Origin: Edaphochlamys debaryana
Lineage: Eukaryota; Chlorophyta; Chlorophyceae; Chlamydomonadales
DNA length: 64,000 bases
Reading direction: 5' to 3'
NCBI GenBank assembly: GCA_016858145.1
Contig: JAEHOE010000080.1
Span: 186,001-250,000 of the forward strand
Shown: positions 8,695 through 48,466 of the stretch, in pieces
Position numbering within the stretch: position 1 is the first letter of the stretch
Layout: every line of letters begins with the position of its first letter
Made by a program: the position numbers and the translations under genes
The notes under the pieces: model-generated
Databases searched by the model: none
What the model saw: the letters and a program-made list of their open reading frames with translations, nothing else
Told to the model about the DNA's origin: nothing

Positions 8695-10395
8695 ATGCGT
8701 GCGCTCTTCGCGCGAGCCAGCCAGGCTAGCGCCATCCGCAACAGTTTAGCGCGCAACTCCTCACCACAGAGCTTCGCCTCAAGACAATTGGCTGCTTCCG
8801 CAAGTACCACGCAGTCAGCGAAATACTTGTTCGCGCTGCCGGTGTCGCCGAGCGGCGCGGCGGTTGCGAGCACATCTGATTGGGACGACTGGGCCCTTTG
8901 GGTGGGCACCTTCGCTGCAAGGGGAGCAGGTTGCTGGGCGCTGACTCAAGAGCGAAATCGCGTTGAGTATGGCCTGGAGTTCCGAGCAGGAGCTGGACAA
9001 TCAGCGTGAGTTTCCCTGCGGTCCACGTTTGCGGCCGCAACCTTGCGCGCTGAGCACCAGGAGTTACGCTTGAGCGCCTGGAGCCGGGGTCTGTGCCGGG
9101 CGTCACACGTGAGGTGTGAGCCGGGTGTATGTGCCACTGCGTGTGCCCCCTTGTGTACCCCACAGGGGCGGCACCGTTTTGGAGCGGTTCGACGAGCCCA
9201 CCCGCTCTGCGTTTCATAACAAGGTGAGCGGCAGGGCAGGTGCGTTCGTCCATACAATCCTGTGGCCCTCCAACTCTTCCCCTTACCCCTCCGGTTGGGT
9301 TCACCCAGGCCCAACAGTCGCCGCAACCCCTGCTGTGTGCTCGCACAGGTCCGCCTCTTCTCCCGCCTCACCGCTGCCCGAGTGCCCTGTGTGCCCCCCA
9401 CGGTATGCTCCCCCGCCGATGCGGCCCGGGCCATGGCGGCGTGCCCTCCTGGCACGGTGTGGTTCTACAAGAAAGCCAAGGCCTCTCGCGGCCGGGGCGT
9501 GTTCCCCATCACCTCCCTGGACCAGCTGCCGCCCGAGGAGCTGGCGGAAGCTGAGGCGGCAGTAGCCGCCAGCGCAGCAGCAGCAGCAGCCACGGACGAT
9601 GGCGCCGCCTCGGTCCCTGCGGCCACGGTCGCGGCTGCGTCGGGCGGGGGCGTGTTCCAGCAGGCCGTCCCCAACATGCTCTTGTGGGAGGGGGGCCGCA
9701 AGTTCGACCTCCGGGTGCTGGTGGTCATGGGGCCGGGCCGCCGTGCGTGGCTCCACCGCACGCTGTACATGCGGGTGGCGACGGAGCCCCTCACGCCAGG
9801 CGACCTGGGCAGAGCCAGCCAGTGCACCAACATCTCCCAGGTGCGGCCGCCCGCGCTCCGCTCGCGATGTTGGGGGGCCTGGGGCCGCGTTACCTCTTTC
9901 ACTGTGGTTGTCCTGTCTTGGCCGCACGGCAGTGCTGGACGGTGGTCTGGCAGCTTTCCAAGGAGTGCTTGCGGTTGCGGTTGCGGTTGCGGTTGCGGTT
10001 GCGGGGGAGGACACCGACACCGACTCAGCGCTCCAACCCTCTTCCCCGCGCCCCTTCAGGGCGGTACCGTGCTCGCCGTGCACGGCTCCGCCGAGCTGAG
10101 CGGGTACGACACCGTGCTCAGCGGGCTGCTGGACGCCGTACGAACGGTCGTATCGGCCATGTACGACGTGCTGCCCGCGGAGGGCGCCATCCACTACTTC
10201 GGCTTTGACTTCATGCTCGACGCGCAGCTCAAGCCCTGGCTGCTGGAGGTCAACTCCACGCCCCGCCTCGTCAACTGCAACCGCACGGGCGCCGTACACG
10301 CGGCGCTGGTGGAGCTGCTGGCGGGCATCGTTGAGCCGTGCCTAGACGGGCGGCCGCTGGGAGCCACGGGCGGCTGGCTGCCGGTGCACCCGTGA
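8695..10395 (+). CDS. Tubulin-tyrosine-ligase (TTL) family ATP-grasp ligase
   Basis: Exons 8695-9005, 9166-9223, 9349-9840 and 10060-10395 join in frame (398 residues if the first ATG is right). TTL enzymes add Tyr, Glu or Gly to tubulin tails or other proteins using ATP. Family hallmarks are visible in order: FYKKAKASRGRGVFPI (ATP-binding Lys and Gly-rich loop), GRKFDLRVLVVM, CTNIS in place of the usual Leu-Thr-Asn, and FGFDFMLD followed by LLEVNSTP, whose acidic residue and Asn bind Mg-ATP. An Ala-rich insert (about 9550-9650) interrupts the fold after the Gly-rich loop. The N-terminal exon is uncertain. It starts with an Arg/Ser/Ala-rich stretch lacking acids, which resembles an organelle presequence, or it could be 5' UTR. 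An ATG at 8969 is out of phase with exon 2. Substrate cannot be read from sequence. Confidence 0.82.
9971..10004 (+). repeat. GCGGTT hexanucleotide microsatellite in a TTL intron
   Basis: Five and a half perfect GCGGTT units lie inside the third intron (9841-10059) of the TTL gene model, so they do not affect the protein. Confidence 0.9.
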
Positions 10396-13716: not shown

Positions 13717-16700
13717 ATGGCGGACTCTGCGGGGGAGTCTGCTGCCGCGGGCGCGCCAGTCAACCTGGTCGAGCTGTTTCAGAACGGCGAGAATGCAATC
13801 GAGCGAAGGAGGTGCGGGATGGGCTGGGGGCAGGGGCAAGACGCTCTGGTGGGGAAAGGCGGAACTTTGCGAAGTGCGCTTGTGCCGACGAGCGCCTGTG
13901 CCGGAAGCCCACGCGCGCGCTGAATCAGTTCTGCCGCGTCTAACCTCTGCCGACAGGACTGACAACCTATTCAAGCAGCTCGACGAGCGACAGCTCACCG
14001 AGGATGAGCAGAACATCATTCAGCAGCGGGTGAGGCTTGAGCCCCGCGATGGCTTCCATAGCGAGCGGATCCGCTGTCAACCATACTGCGCTGACCCACG
14101 AACTGCAGGTGGACCTGCAGCGCAAGATGTTCGTGGAGTATGAGCGCCGTGAAAAGGAGCGCAAGGTGGGTCTGCCACGCCCCACATTTCCCCCGCCCTC
14201 GAACGGGACTCCCCCTCATCCCACGCTCTGACCGCTCACTTGCAACTGCTCCGGGTATCACCCCTGCCTGCCGCCGTCTGCCTTGGCTGTACAGGTGCGG
14301 GAGCTCAACGAGGTCTGCCCAGACCTAGACGAGGAGGCTGCCAAGCGGGCCCTCGAGCTGTGCAACTGGAAGTAAGGCGGTTGGGAGGTACAGCAGGCGC
14401 TAGGGCAGAGCATTTCCAAGTGCCCTGCTGTTGTGCTCCTCGGCTGGACTGTTGCGCGCCCAACTGGAGCCTGTCCGACACCTGCTGCCATGCTTCACAA
14501 CCACAGGGAGGAGGAGGCTGCCATGCGCTTGAGCTCAGACCCTGCCTTCCTGCGTCGGGTCACTTCTGGAGTGTGCGAGGAGGTTGCTCCAGGTAGGCCA
14601 GGTCGCCTATGCCTTGCGAGCGCGTAGCAGAGGGGGTTGCACAGTCTGACCATGACACACCCGACGTCGCTTAACCCCACAGCCCCCAAGGTCAACCGCG
14701 CTCGCGCCGGCAGCACCCGGGCACAGGTCGGCCCACGGCCCAAGCTGGTGGACCCCAGCCAGGTGGGCTTGCAAGCGCTGGGGCCGGGCGGCTCAGAGCT
14801 GCGTAACGGCTGCTCTAGTATTCGCAGTCAGGCACAATTGGTACTTGGCAAGTAGCCCCGTTTGGTACGCTGGGCACCGCCTCTTAACGCTCGCGACGCG
14901 TGTCACACCTCCCTGACCCCAGGTTGGCGCTGTGTTCGTTGGCAAATTCAAGGGCCGCCTCGGCCCCCACCAGATCAGCGCCATGGGCCGCCAGCAGGCT
15001 GCCGCAGCCAAGCCCGCCTCAGCACCGGCCGCGGTAAGACCTGCGTCCTGGATTGCTTGCTCGTTATAGCGTGTCAGGCACTGCATGCATGGCGTTCAGC
15101 TCGATAGTGTGGTCCACAGGTCTAACATCTCAGTGAAACCTCCCCTTCCTCTGTCAGGGTCGTCGCGGCGGGGCGTCTCGTGGCGGGGCCAAGACCTCCC
15201 GCCGCAAGCGCGCGTCCGCTGCTGACGAGACGGACGAGGAGGAGGAGGAGGAGCCGGTCGAGGAGAGCGAGGGCGAGGAGCACGCTGAGCCGGCAGCGGC
15301 TGGCGGTGAGGACGCACCCATGGCTGACGCCGCGGCCGCGGTCGCTGACGACGAGGGCGCGCAGCCCATGGAGGAGGGCGAGGAGGCGGTCGCGGATGCT
15401 GAGGAGGAGCCCAACTCGGCGGGTGAGTCGCTGGTCCTTACGGAGGGCCGCAGGTATGCCGATGACCACAATCGCAACTAGAGGTAGTCGGCCGGCAGTA
15501 CTTGGTGATATCACTCTACAGCTGGACCGACTCAGCAAAGACAGCAGAGGGCAACGACACCCCCGACCGTCTCATCCGATCTCCCCATCCCACAGACCTC
15601 TCCGACAACGAGCTGCGGTACGAGGACGACGTGCTGCCGGTCCTGAGCCCCCTGGCGGTGCGCAGGCAGCAGCAGGAGCCGCTGTCCGGTGGCGCCCCGG
15701 CCGTGGTGCCCCTGGGCGCGGGGGCCTGCAAGACCGCCACCACGCCGGTCAAGGCCCAGCCTGTGGCAGGTGACGAGGACGAGGTCAACAGCCCGCGCCT
15801 GCTGCAGCCCAGCAGCGGCAACGAGGCCCCGCCGCCCGAGCCCCTCCTGCAGCCGCCGCCCCACCACCAGACCGCCGAGACGCGCGAGAAGCTGCCCTCT
15901 GGGGCGGACGCCAAGCAGCAGCTGGAGGAGAGCCGCTCGCCCCGGGCCCAGCGGCAACAGCGGCGAGAGGACCGGCGTCGCTGCAGCGGCGGGTTAGCGG
16001 AGGCGGCTGCTGTGGCCTCAGCACCGGCGGCCGGTGAGGCCGAGCCCTCTGTTCCGCCGGCTGAGGGGGGCCGCGGCGGGCGCACCCGCCGGGCGGCAGC
16101 GGCTGTGGCGGTGCTGCGTGCCCGGGAGGCTGCCGGCGCGGAGAGCGAGAAGGAGGAGGGCACGGATGGGGCCTCGTCGGACTTCGAGGAGGAGGCGGCC
16201 GCCAAGGCGGAGGCCTCCTCCAGCGACAGCGGCAGCGACGCGGACGTGGAGACGGAGGACAGCGACTGCGTGGCGGGAGGCCGGGGGCGCAAGCGGCGAG
16301 CGGGTGAGCGGGAAGGAGGGCTAGGGTTGATCAAGGGAAGACTTCTGATGGGATCTTACGGCAAGGAAGCGCGTGACCGGTGCACTTGTCAAGTTCCCTG
16401 CATGCTAATGCCTTCTCCTGACAAAATCACTCCTTGCCATGTTGATAGGCGTGACAGCCAAGGGCAAGCAGGCACGGAAGCGGCCCTCACGCGGCGCACG
16501 AGCTGGCAGCTCAGAGCCGCCGGCGACGGTAGCGGCAGACCCGGCAGCGGCTGGGCCCTCGGGCCGGCAAGCGGCGGACGTGCTGGCAGGCGGCGAGCAG
16601 CAGGACTCGGAGGCAACGGTGACGGAGGACGAGGGGACCAAGAAGCCGGCCAAGGGCAAGGGCGCAGCAAAGGGACGAGGTGCGCGCCTGCCGCTCAGCA

Positions 16701-18973
16701 GATACGCTCCTGCGCTGCTTGTCAGCACTGTTCAATCAGTCATCGCCTTTGTCCAACTAGATTGCCTGCTGTGCGTTGATGCAGGTGGCCGCGGCGGGGG
16801 CGGCGGCGGTCGCGGCCGCGGCGCCATCAGCGCCAGCGGGCACACGTGCCGCGGGCGCGTCAAGCAAAAGGGCGTCAAGCGCGCCGACCTGCTCTCAGTG
16901 GGGCAGCTCATCGCCAGGCCCGGCTGGTTCAACGCTGGTACGTTCCAGGCCTTCCTTTGCTTCTGTGGTACTCTACAGCTTCCGCAGTACTGCCCAATAT
17001 CCTGGTGCACGTCGTGCAAGCCGCGCGTTAGCCTGGGCGGGCCTTGACGATTTGTCTCTCGCTGGCGCCTTCCGCAGGCTACATCTTCCCCGCCGGCTTC
17101 CGCGCCCAGACGCTGTTCCGCTCCTCCGTGGACCTGGACAGCCTCACCATGCACACCTGCGAGATCGTGGGAGAGGTGGGCGGGGAGTCGCAGCCACCGC
17201 GGGGGGCAGCAATCACCGCCCCGGGGTGTTGCTGCCGGGGCAAACTTGGTCCATTGTTACCTTGCTGTTTGCTGTGTCACCAAGGGCTGAGCTCCTACTT
17301 GTCATCCTGGTCGCAGGGCGGCGCCTACTGGCCCGCGCCCACGTACGTGGTGACAGCCGCTGACCGCCCCGACGAGCCGCTCGTGGCCAAGAGCTGCACC
17401 GGCTGCTGGACGGCGGTGAGCCTGCTCGGGAGCTCTACCCCTTACCGATGGGCGGCCTGCGTAGTACAAAACATAGTCTTGCTAAATTGTCTGGTCACTC
17501 ACTTGAACGCATGCTCTCTGCCCGCCAGGTCCTCAAGCGCATCAACGGCGAGATCGAGGGCCGCCGCGCCGCGGGCGAGAACCTGCCGCCGCCGCCCAAG
17601 GTAAGGCGCACCTACCCCCGCCTGTATACCCATCATGATGCGGTCCCCATCCCGCAGCCCGCACGTCAACCCTTTATCCCTCACACCATGCTCTGTTTCG
17701 CCCCGTCCTCGCCCCTCCCCCCAGACCGCCATTGCGGGGCCCGAGTACTTCGGCCTCAATCAGCCGGAGATCTGCGCCGCCATTGAGGCCCTGGACGCCG
17801 ACAAAGCCTGCGCCATCTACTGGTGAGGGAGCGCCAGACACGCATTGCTCTGTGTCGAAAGAGCCCCAAGAGCCAAACATAGTCCTCGTTGTACAGGCGC
17901 GCTTGGCCCGCAGTGTGTTGCGGGGCGGCTTGAGGGCGGCCACTTAGCGCATGTTTCACCTGCATGCTCCTCTCCAGGGATGGCAAGATGGACCGCGAGG
18001 CCATCCGCGGAGGCGCACCGCTGCCCGTGCCCCGCGCGGCGCCGGCGGCGCCCAAGGTTTCCCGCGCGCCCCGCAACAGCACGGGCGGTGGCGGTGGGCG
18101 CAAGCGCGGCGGCAAGGGCCGGGGCAGCGGCGACGACGAGCCCGAGCCCGCCCCTGAGGGCGAGGAGGACCCCGCGGAGACCTACGCCGGGAACAGGTGG
18201 GAGTGGAGGGCCCCTGGAGGAGGGCTGTTGCTGTCTATACAATCGCCTTCGCCGGCATGTCGGGCAGCCTGTCATAAACCCTGCTGCCTGGATTGGGACC
18301 CTAACGCCTCTGCCGATGGTTGGTCCTGCTGGTGTCCCTGTTTGCAGGTGGTCGGCGGTGACCCGTGGCGAGCGCTACCGCAAGCGCTGCGAGGACGCGG
18401 GCGAGGACATGGCAACCATGCTGGAGGTGGGGCGGGCAGGCGGTGCGGCGCTCAGCGGTGTTGGTGGCTGCATGTGGCCAGGTTGCTGCGGCTCACCCAG
18501 CTGCCCAGACCCTGACTTCCAGCACACGGCCCTTTAAAGCCTTCGTTGACACCCGGCCCCCAGGAATCTGCGCGCGACAACCCGCTGCCCGGCTTCCTGG
18601 ACCCCATCACCCTGGAGCCCGTCAGCAACCCGGCCATCTCGCCCTTCGGCCACGTGATGGGCTTCGCCACCTGGAAGGCCGTGCTGGCGGAGCACGTGAG
18701 CAGGGCAATCACGTAGCAGGGGTCCCGCTGCTTTCTCTCGATGCCGTCAGTGGGCTGCGATGCTGCTAGTCCTGCGCCCTCCCCACTCCTCTTCATCCCG
18801 GACGCGTAGCGTGCCGCTTGCGACGGTCACCCTTTCCTTCCACTCCCGCGTCTTTCCCCTCTGGTATCCAGGGCCGCTGCCCGTTCACCAAGCAGCAGCT
18901 CAAGGCGGAGCAGCTGACGGTCCTGACCAAGAACAACATCGAGCGCTACCGCTCCAAGATCATCCAGTCGTAG
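13717..18973 (+). CDS. CUE-like, FYRN/FYRC and U-box-like multidomain protein, probable chromatin or ubiquitin factor
   Basis: Nineteen exons join in frame to 944 residues: 13717-13811, 13957-14029, 14109-14165, 14295-14371, 14507-14592, 14683-14762, 14923-15033, 15158-15422, 15596-16303, 16449-16679, 16785-16937, 17078-17175, 17317-17415, 17529-17600, 17725-17822, 17978-18196, 18348-18426, 18564-18695, 18872-18973. Residues 76-119 (VRELNEVCPDLDEEAAKRAL and after) resemble a CUE/UBA helix bundle. The middle is acidic, Ser-rich and basic-patch disorder. Residues about 646-770 match FYRN then FYRC: GYIFPAGFRAQTLFRS, HTCEIVGE, GPEYFGLNQPEICAAIEALD. FYR modules occur in chromatin proteins such as MLL-type methyltransferases, JmjC demethylases and TBRG1. 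The C-terminus (GFLDPITLEPVSNPAISPFG, then CPFTKQQL) fits a U-box-like E3 fold. No SET or JmjC domain is present. A nuclear role linking ubiquitin to chromatin is inference. Confidence 0.85.
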
Positions 18974-22900: not shown

Positions 22901-25453
22901 GGCCTAGGGCGGGCCCGCTTCGAGTCCAAGCGCCACGCGTTTCCGCCTCCGCGGGCTCCCAGAACTGCGGCCAACGCCCAGCCCCAGGCGCAACCCTGTC
23001 GTCTTGCGGCCATCAGCACATCTCACCTGCGCCGCGTCCCTTCCGCTCTGGCAATCATCTAGTTAGGAATTGAAGGGACCTGAGCCGAACACATGCAGCC
23101 GTGCTGTCAGCGCTTTACCTCTGCGCAGATGACGGGGCTTCTTATTGACGAGGTTGAGGACGTCCAGGCCGAGGACGCCGCTTCGGTGGATGTGCTGAGT
23201 GCGCATGACACATCCAGCCCCAGGCCGCTCTCCAATTCTCATTGCTCCGACCACCCATTCGTTAAACCACCGCCCCGCCCCCTCATCCTGCAGGTCCGGC
23301 TGATGCAGAAGCTGCTGCAGGTGCAGCAGATGAAGGCCATGGTGCGGGAGGCCATGCGGGGCCGGGAGCTGGAGGGCGAGGGCGGGGAGGGCGAGCTGGA
23401 CGAGGACATGCCCTACGACGCAGCCGGCGCGGCAGCGGCAGCCGCGGCGGCGGCTCACAACGGGATGGGCGGGCCAGCCGCCGCCAACGGCGGCGTGCCC
23501 GCCCAGCCGGCGGAGCCTGAGCCGCACCCACACGAGCTGGAGGCGCCGGCACCGTCAGCGCGCCACCAAGCGCCGGCGTCTGGAGCGCCTGCGGAGCCGG
23601 GTTCTGGGCAGGGCGGCGCAGCGGCGGGTGCTGGGGCCATGCCTTCGGCCGGGGACCTGGTGCGGGCGCTGGCGGCGGCTCGGGCGCACACCAAGGCGGC
23701 GGAGGCGGAGGCAGCCGCGGCGGCAGCAGCGGCGGGGCCGATGAGCGCCGTTGAGGAGCTGCTGGCCCGCCGCAACGCCGGTCTGCCCCTGGCGGAGGCG
23801 CTACAGGCGGCGGCGCAGGGCCAGGCCCGACAGCAGCAGCACCTGCTCGCCCAGGCCCAGCAGGCCCAGCAGGCCCAGGCCCAGGCCCACGCGCAAGGGC
23901 AGGCGCAGCACTCGGCGCCGGGCCTGCCAGAGAGCCTGCTGCGCGGAGGCCAACACCAGGGAGAGCGGGACCCCGAGCGTGACGTGCAGCGCTTCCCACG
24001 GCTCGTGTCAGAGCGGGAGCAGGCGCGGGAGCAGGCGCGGGACCGGGAGCAGGCGCGGGAACAGTTGCGGGAGCTGGCGAGGGAGCAGGTGAAGGAGCTG
24101 GCCAGGGAGCAGGCACGCGAGCAGGCGCGGGAGGACGCGCGGGAGCAGCTGTGGGAGGACGCGCGGGAGCAGGCGCGGGAGCAGCTGCGGGATCGGGAGC
24201 AGGCGCGGGAGATCGCTCGCGAGCAGGCTAAGGAGCATCTGGCGAGGGAGCAGACGAGGCAACAGGCTCGGGAGCAAGCGCAGGAGCATGTCATGGAGCA
24301 AGTGAGGGAGCAGGCGAGGGAGCTGGCGAGGGAGCACGCCAAGGAGGCGCACGCGAGGGACCAGCGGGAGCGGGCGGAGGCTCAGCAGGCCGCCGCGTCT
24401 CAGCGCGCGGCCCCCGCTGGGGCGGCACGGGACGTGGACATGGGGGACGCGGACGAGCGGCCCCCTGCTCCACCTGCACCTGCACCTGCGCCCACACCTG
24501 CGCCCGCGCCCGCACCCGCGCCTGCGCCCACACCTGCGCCCGCACCCGCACCCGCGCCTGCGGCGACTGCGCCAGCCGCCGCCAGCGTCTGGCGGGAGGG
24601 CGGCGTGGGCAGCACCGAGCCCGCGCGGTCCTCGGGCGGCGGCGCCGTCAAGCCGCCCGCCGGATCGCCGCAGCCTCCGCTGCCTCAGCAGCAGCGGGAG
24701 CGGGAGCGGGAGCCCCAGAAGGAGCGGGAGTCGGGCGCCCAGACCACCAGCTCTCAGCCCTCCCAACCACACCCGCAGCGCCCCACGCCCGGCGGCCCCA
24801 ACTCGGGCGCCCCGGGCTCAGGCAGCGGCGGCCGGCTCATGTCGTACATGACCTCCCTGACTCAGCACAAGGGCGCCATCTCGGCCGGCCGCACGCAGCC
24901 GCCGCCCAGCCACCTGGCGCCGCCGCTGAGGGTGCCGCACGGGCCGTCGCACCCGCAGCCGGCAGCCGCGGGCGGCAGCGGGCAGCCGCCGCGGAGCCCA
25001 CGTGCTTCCGATGCGGAGAAGTCGCCGCGCCACAACGAGGGCGCAGCACCGTCAGCACACGGCAGGACCGACACCCACCATCGCCCCGCACAAGGTGCAC
25101 CGCACGGCCAGCAGCCGCACGTGCAGGCAACACGAGAGCAGCACGCACGGCCCACGGGCAGCGGGAGCGGCGGTGGTGCGGATCCGGGGCACCGCGCGGC
25201 GCCCTCCCCGCCGCACCGGTCGCCGCTGCGGTCGGGGGGCGGAGAGGACCAGGCACACGGGGCGCAGCAGCAGCAGCAGCAGCAGCCGGCGCGGTCAGCA
25301 CAGGCGCCCTCGGGTACTAGCCAGGACCGGCCTTCACAGCCGCCGCCTGCACGGGAGCCACCAAAGGATGCGGCGGTTGCACCACCGCGGCCGCCCGCTC
25401 AGGGCGCCAGCGGCGCTCGGGCGGACCAGGAGGAGGGCGAGGTGCGGGAGTAG
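19974..25453 (+). CDS. 1395-residue low-complexity protein with a long Arg/Glu/Gln helix, function unknown
   Basis: Six exons fit in frame: 19974-20440, 20735-20872, 21005-21314, 21504-22385, 22593-22823 and 23294-25453, from MSRKGVAAARG to EEGEVRE and TAG. The N-terminal quarter (for example DPLLNGGQRLSDAVLARMGL) may be folded. The rest is mostly disordered: Ala, Gly, Pro, Gln and Arg rich, with Ser-Pro sites. A likely helical stretch spans exons 5-6: LAAIERKLMLQEERLMFELK, continuing into a Met/Gln/Lys-rich segment. DNA 24000-24380 encodes about 125 residues of Arg-Glu-Gln-Ala tetrads, expected to form a single charged helix or coiled coil. It is followed by a Pro-Ala repeat (24470-24575) and poly-Gln (25265-25285). 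Intron 5 contains a 353-bp repeat copy. No TGTAA is seen close downstream. I recognise no family. Confidence 0.8.
22855..23207 (+). repeat. 353-bp dispersed repeat, copy 1 (intronic)
   Basis: It begins AGCGAGACGGGCCCGCTGGC and is almost identical to 32821-33174 (about 98 percent by eye, with scattered substitutions and a 2-base indel). It lies wholly inside intron 5 (22824-23293) of the 1395-residue gene. The 3' part has a short open frame, MTGLLIDEVEDVQAEDAAS, conserved in both copies. The ends are not TG...CA, and I see no clear target-site duplication or inverted termini. Confidence 0.9.
24007..24380 (+). repeat. 12-bp coding minisatellite (Glu-Gln-Ala-Arg tetrad)
   Basis: A degenerate 12-base unit close to GAGCAGGCGCGG is iterated through the last exon of the 1395-residue gene and encodes repeated REQA. 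Variants such as LREL, VKEL and DRE show unit divergence. The repeat keeps frame throughout. Confidence 0.9.
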
Positions 25454-47107: not shown

Positions 47108-48466
47108 TCAGCCGCCGGCACAGCGAACATCCAGCAGCACGTGCTGCGGCCCGACACCCGGCCGCCGCCTGAAGACCATGGCGGCGCACCCCACCGCCGC
47201 CGCCGCCGCCGCGTCCACCCCGTGTGCCTCCTCCAGCTGCTCCGGCGCCAGCAGCTCCCAGCCACACATACCCGCCAGCGCCGCCAGCCCCAGCCCATGC
47301 GCCGCCGCCCACTCCCCCGGGAACGCCAGCAGCAGCAGCCGCCCCGCCTGAGGCCCCGCGCAAGCCGCCACGTGATCGCCGCCGCTGCCGGCGGCTGCGG
47401 CCCTGGAGGCGGGTCCCCCGGCGCTCGGGTGGAGGAGCTGTGCGGCCACGTCGAAGAGAGCGCGGGCGGCCTGCACGGGCGCATCCGCCGACGCACCGGG
47501 CGCACCAGCCGACGTCGTGACGCCCGCGAGCGGATCGACGCCGTAAACGATGTCGTACCCGCCGGGGTGCATCTGCAGCACGTCTCGGAGCTGCCGCACA
47601 GGCCCGGACACGTACGTGTACCCCGCGGCGCCGGTGGCGGCGCCCGCCGCCGCCGCCGAGGCGGCGCCCATGCCCAGCCAGTCCAACGGCGCGAGCCGAA
47701 GGCGCTCGATCACGATACGGCTGGAGTTGCGGCGGAGGTCCGCCGCCGCCGCCGCCAGCCCGTCGCGGCCGCCGTCCGTAACCACGATGCGTCGGGCGGC
47801 GGCGCGTACGGCAACCATGGCGGGCAGCACGCCGGCGGCGGCTGTGGTGATGGGTGCGGAGGTGGAGGGGGTGGCGGGTCCGAGCTGGAGCGCACAACGG
47901 CCCGCGAGCAACCGTGGGGACGCCAGGAAGAGGCGAGCCAGGGCAAGGGAAGCCGCGGGCAGGTGGGGGGAGCCTGCGCGGAGGGAAAGGTTGGGGACTC
48001 GATGAGGCACAGACAGGTTGGAAGGCGAGACGAGGCGGTGGCAAAGCTGGGACCCTGGTGCCGGCCTCACCTGTTTCAGGCGAAAGCCCGCACAGGCACC
48101 GGAAGCTGACGCTAGGGCCCACGGGCACCTCCACCTCAACGGTCGATGCCGTACCAACCGCCACGGTTGGCGCCGCCGCCACTGCTGCGGGTGCAGGCGC
48201 CGGCTTGGCCGCCGCCGCTCCGAACGCCGCCGGCACCGCCGCCAGCCGCGCCGCCGCCACCTCAGCCACGTCCGCCAGGCGCACACGGGACAGCGCCGCG
48301 CCCGTTGCCGCCACCTCGGCCGCCACCTGCGACCGGGGAAGCACGCGGCCCAGTCTGACTTGCGCTTGCGCTTACGGTCGCATCCACACAAGCAATTACC
48401 CATGTTTGACAGATGCCGCTCTGTTCTCCAGCCCACACCCTCCTCCCCCACCCGGTCCAGGGTCCT

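Follow-up and report, generated by a model that had tools for sequence, protein, structure and literature searches.

Does one algal protein join a tandem FYRN-FYRC module to a ubiquitin-ligase fold, and what might such a protein do? The question is raised by a gene of the volvocine alga Edaphochlamys debaryana, which lies in a 64,000-nucleotide stretch of DNA (the whole stretch analysed, hereafter the window; contig JAEHOE010000080.1, positions 186,001 to 250,000 of the forward strand). A sequence-only reading of this DNA had placed a CUE-like helix bundle, long disordered regions, FYRN-FYRC and a C-terminal U-box in a single 944-residue product of many exons, and had proposed a chromatin reader-ligase. 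Our analysis confirms the architecture as a whole, with the CUE call alone weaker than claimed. The parts are known; the combination of FYR with a U-box is conserved and is unreported in the literature searched.

Results

A tandem FYR module and a U-box in one protein

The gene, HYH03_012719, spans positions 13717..18973 of the window and, like all its features given below, is read on the + strand. The exon model has 19 exons, with every intron of the form GT...AG, and its 2835 nt encode 944 amino acids plus a stop. The translation equals the annotated E. debaryana protein letter for letter (944/944 residues; P0001 in our protein set, the members of which carry P-numbers). When the 141.9 Mb, 502-contig assembly was searched with the U-box piece, this locus was the sole match.

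Two adjacent domains of the tandem FYR module, FYRN (residues 628-676, exons 11-12, 16883..17169) and FYRC (residues 686-771, exons 13-16, 17338..17987), scored 35.3 and 60.1 bits in a whole-protein Pfam scan, above their curated cut-offs of 24 and 21. The AlphaFold model is confident over three folded parts of the protein. One of these is the FYR part (residues 631-780), with block values of the predicted local distance difference test (pLDDT) of 82-98, which in a fold search matched the solved FYR fold 2wzo. The U-box (residues 878-937, exons 18-19, 18594..18949) scored 23.2 bits in the whole protein and 27.9 bits in the C-terminal piece, with a cut-off of 21.4; some relatives fall under it (for example P0072, 20.5 bits, and P0234, 15.7 bits). 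Here the model (residues 871-940, block pLDDT 91-97) matched the solved U-box folds of Prp19 and E4B. The eight zinc ligands of RING ligases are missing from the alignment, in which one Cys and one His are conserved in both the algal and the fungal group described below, so that the domain has the U-box/RING fold without the zinc-ligand set. Profile, fold match and conservation thus bear out both the tandem FYRN-FYRC module and the U-box.

Much of the remainder is linker: 507/944 residues, which make up the long linkers, have a pLDDT below 50. The longest stretch described here (residues 182-605, 14998..16816), first acidic and then basic, is mostly below this value and is disordered; it holds basic clusters that, by eye, resemble nuclear localisation signals. 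Just before FYRN lies a conserved basic motif, GRVKQKGVKR (residues 618-627, 16853..16882). G618, R619, V620 and K626 are each present in at least 90% of the 60 rows of alignment A1, which was drawn from 120 listed relatives and includes three of fungal type, and the regular expression GR[VI]xxKxxK was found in 75/102 proteins with FYR and a U-box, as compared to 0/120 of the Myb type.

The architecture is kept across green algae

A search for relatives yielded 128 proteins, and among the 120 listed, profile matches identified the N-terminal module (N-module) in 96, FYR in 113 and the U-box in 107, using profiles drawn from the same 120. We then counted modules in 235 fetched proteins; the profiles for the N-module and the U-box used here, as also in the comparison of FYR and fungal types, came from P0001-P0113 alone. 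All three modules, in the same order as in HYH03_012719, were present in 85; FYR and U-box without the N-module in 17; FYR and N-module without a U-box in four; FYR only in nine; N-module and U-box without FYR in 116; and, by subtraction, the U-box only in four. Because this order is kept in 85/235 proteins, the joining of the modules in one protein is more than chance. The three-module proteins include those of Pleodorina, Volvox, Gonium, Chlamydomonas, Raphidocelis, Chlorella, Trebouxia, Coccomyxa, Picochlorum, Prototheca, Ostreobium, Bryopsis, Picocystis and Cymbomonas, so that the FYR and U-box architecture, sought in other green algae, is conserved from the relatives of Chlamydomonas to Picocystis and Cymbomonas.

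In a tree of 49/235 proteins, made by a quick method that left 21/46 inner branches open, second copies from Myrmecia, Coccomyxa and Apatococcus grouped in one branch (Shimodaira-Hasegawa-like approximate likelihood ratio test, 98). Three proteins (P0109, P0234 and P0235), which carry the N-module, FYR, an Arg segment described below and the U-box, formed a deep third branch of length 1.17 with support 99.

Could annotation instead have fused neighbouring genes into HYH03_012719? In one relative, P0052 from Elliptochloris, about 550 residues with PF19036/PF19037 domains stand in front of the family protein, and these may reflect either a genuine fusion or a gene model that runs two genes together. 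Against such an artefact stand the 85/235 proteins with identical module order and the joining of N-module and U-box in 116 fungal-type proteins as well. In addition, 10/14 relatives on short contigs (picked and tabulated by hand) carry all three modules, the other 4/14 lacking the N-module, and in some the coding length almost fills a contig of 2-3.3 kb (1977/2009 bases in P0081, 2325/2529 in P0065 and 3102/3336 in P0015). Judged from these lengths, the three frames appear to be intron-free. Since short-contig relatives carry all the modules with a coding length nearly equal to the contig, separate transcripts are disfavoured, and we consider an artefact of gene fusion scarcely credible.

The search also returned FYR proteins of other kinds. 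In P0103-P0108 the partners of FYRN-FYRC are a homeodomain and a domain for CAF1A dimerisation (in P0104, Homeodomain 24.9 and CAF1A_dimeriz 44.6 bits, both above cut-off), an arrangement like that of a CAF-1 large subunit to which FYR has been added; these proteins gave no U-box match in the profile search. In P0110, ankyrin repeats are fused to FYRN-FYRC; it had no relative in the viral contigs searched.

The N-terminal module: a predicted long helix and UBA/CUE-like bundle

The third folded part (residues 47-121, exons 2-5, 14000..14567) was modelled as a 36-residue helix (47-82) running into three short helices (88-97, 102-111 and 113-121). Block pLDDT was 81-96 over residues 21-120 and 88-96 over 41-120, with the short helices at 94-96. 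A profile of 20 N-modules (alignment A3, 20/22 N-pieces, leaving out P0062 and P0227) matched 26 PDB sequences at E<=10. The best were YBL047C (2g3q, E 0.0046) and TNK1 (0.0078), which we take to be UBA domains; two designed helical proteins came next, ahead of Tollip (0.011), which we take to be a CUE domain. In HYH03_012719 no Pfam CUE, UBA or UBA_4 match rose above cut-off: the protein's own N-piece reached 15.8 for UBA_4, where 21.8 is needed, and 15.0 for UBA, where 22.4 is needed. Over the 20 N-modules, matches at E<=1 were to UBA (8), GIP1_N (6), CEP15-like (6) and CUE (4). Databases already label some family members U-box or CUE proteins; the relative in Volvox carteri, for instance, is entered in one source as 'CUE domain-containing'.

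Early-diverging fungi share both ends

Proteins of early-diverging fungi (Rhizophagus, Coemansia, Mortierella, Mucor and chytrids) have the same N-module and the same U-box subfamily. Among 120 fungal-type proteins chosen by U-box alone, the N-module was detected in 116 by a profile that excluded them, as compared to 0/600 shuffled sequences. They differ from the algal proteins in what lies between: none of the 120 gave a FYR match, the Arg segment is absent, and a Myb-like domain was found in the middle of 7/8 proteins scanned, above cut-off in four.

Alignment A2 held 46/120 fungal-type proteins. To compare the types, a residue was called common where the same residue was commonest, at >85%, in both the FYR type and the Myb type. 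At the C-terminus these are N873, P874, P876, D880, P881, I882, T883, L884, V887, P890-S893, G896-G900, W904, L908, C914, P915, T917, K918, L921, L929, T930, N933 and I941; in the N-module they are I53, R56, Q60, E68, R70, E71, K75 and L95. Positions 82-84 are of a V-C-P type in FYR-type proteins and of an M/V-Y/F-D/G type in fungi, and position 109 is a single Leu-type position.

Three of the common U-box residues, I882, P915 and K918, presumably lie where other U-boxes are contacted by E2 enzymes, with roles taken from CHIP (the Lys was counted from the alignment, as the regular expression overlooked 33/120 fungal and 7/102 FYR-type proteins). As Ile, Pro and Lys are all retained there, it is fair to infer a ligase. 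A structural or oligomerising U-box, within a TBRG1-like remodeller adaptor that transfers no ubiquitin, would have no need of these residues, kept in both lineages, and we regard it as unlikely. This alternative does draw on the FYR part, whose strongest fold and sequence match is TBRG1 (2wzo), on the title of the best U-box match, 2bay, which names a Prp19 U-box dimer, and on human TBRG1, which co-purifies with INO80 at a substoichiometric level (PMC10954555).

The FYR-type proteins have a feature of their own before the U-box, a W-S-x-V-x-R-x-x-R-x-x-x-R segment (residues 842-857, 18349..18396), modelled as a helix (847-857) at low to moderate confidence (block pLDDT 51-67). W842, R847, R850 and R854 are invariant in 100/100 FYR-type rows having letters there. 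A regular expression composed after inspecting the alignment found the segment in 101/102 proteins with FYR and a U-box, in 0/120 of the Myb type and in 0/13 FYR proteins without a U-box. Neither this segment nor the fungal counterparts figured in the sequence-only reading.

Elsewhere in the window

An open frame at 9262-10395 (+) matches the tubulin-tyrosine ligase family (63.4 bits), and ARAGORN places a tRNA-Ala (GGC) at 48205-48277 (-). A degenerate 12-base tandem repeat of about 27 copies (24013-24336) lies within an open frame (23093-25453) that has no Pfam match at E<=0.001.

Discussion

Taken together, these data lead us to favour, by a modest margin over doubt, a chromatin-recruited nuclear U-box ubiquitin ligase. 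In such a mechanism, FYRN-FYRC would anchor the ligase to a partner bound to chromatin (most likely a complex that remodels chromatin or regulates transcription); the U-box would take a charged E2 and transfer ubiquitin to a nearby chromatin protein; and the long N-terminal helix with its bundle might hold the substrate complex or attached ubiquitin, favouring chain extension. For the Arg segment beside the U-box, contact with DNA or with a nucleosome surface is a guess. The fungal proteins, with these two ends around a Myb-like domain, would have the same ligase logic aimed by DNA binding.

Recruitment of the FYR part to a chromatin complex is plausible, because FYR proteins occur in the INO80 and ISWI remodeller complexes: human TBRG1 co-purifies with INO80 and follows its nucleosome-binding pattern (PMC10954555), mouse Niam was found with all reported INO80 subunits (PMC5557939), and the kinetoplastid FY-rich protein FYRP is part of an ISWI complex (PMC7233268). 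This analogy does not imply histone reading by FYR. Of the proposed reader-ligase, therefore, the joining of FYR and U-box stands and the ligase is reasonable, while the 'chromatin reader' part stays a proposal.

In the same mouse study, a C-terminal piece of Niam/TBRG1 with the FY domains showed no chromatin association and no Myst2 binding (PMC5557939). This would suit a ligase whose targets are soluble or cytoplasmic and whose FYR part is a plain protein-protein module without a chromatin link. The long basic clusters of HYH03_012719, the presence of FYR proteins in remodeller complexes and the central Myb-like domain of the fungal counterparts all oppose such a ligase, and make it distinctly improbable. 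As to ubiquitin binding, neither UBA nor CUE was matched when eight fungal relatives were scanned at full length. CUE domains have MFP and LL (di-leucine) motifs as hallmarks, and these motifs are not kept in the alignment. Moreover, 7/8 common N-module residues fall within the long helix that precedes the bundle; as shared positions are mostly in the helix, both lineages keep it more than a loop of the ubiquitin-binding type. With its Pfam scores below threshold and the CUE motifs absent, the N-module is best called UBA/CUE-like, with ubiquitin binding putative.

How does this ligase candidate relate to known systems? It shares the tandem FYRN-FYRC and the fold match 2wzo with animal TBRG1/NIAM. 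To our knowledge, TBRG1 has neither a U-box nor a UBA/CUE-like bundle, FYR being its only chromatin- or ubiquitin-type domain; HYH03_012719 carries a U-box in addition, and so is not a FYR-only protein. It has the FYRN-FYRC module of the chromatin enzymes KMT2/MLL and KDM5/JMJ demethylases, but in the Pfam scan had a U-box instead of any SET, JmjC or PHD match. With the U-box E3/E4 ligases (CHIP, UFD2/UBE4B, Prp19 and plant PUBs) it shares the zinc-ligand-free fold and the residues at the presumed E2-contact places. The algal and fungal U-boxes differ from these in having their own signature, DPITLxxVxxPAISxxGHVMG...W...CP[FL]TK, and in being joined to FYR or Myb; the usual U-box partners are TPR, ARM, WD40 and the Ufd2 core. 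A literature search pairing FYR terms with U-box, covering few subscription journals, returned no report of the combination.

It is an even call whether these proteins form one family of ubiquitin-ligase scaffolds with two conserved ends and, between them, a module that targets chromatin: FYRN-FYRC in green algae and one further lineage, Myb in early-diverging fungi. If so, one ubiquitylation job was retained and the means of locating chromatin exchanged; the shared function should then lie in the two ends, and common substrates would name the scaffold's job. If HYH03_012719 proves to be a ligase, then green algae possess a ubiquitin writer associated with chromatin, undescribed in the literature searched, that is kept even in the colourless alga Prototheca. 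The family may also throw light on the ligands of FYR modules, a matter relevant to MLL and TBRG1.
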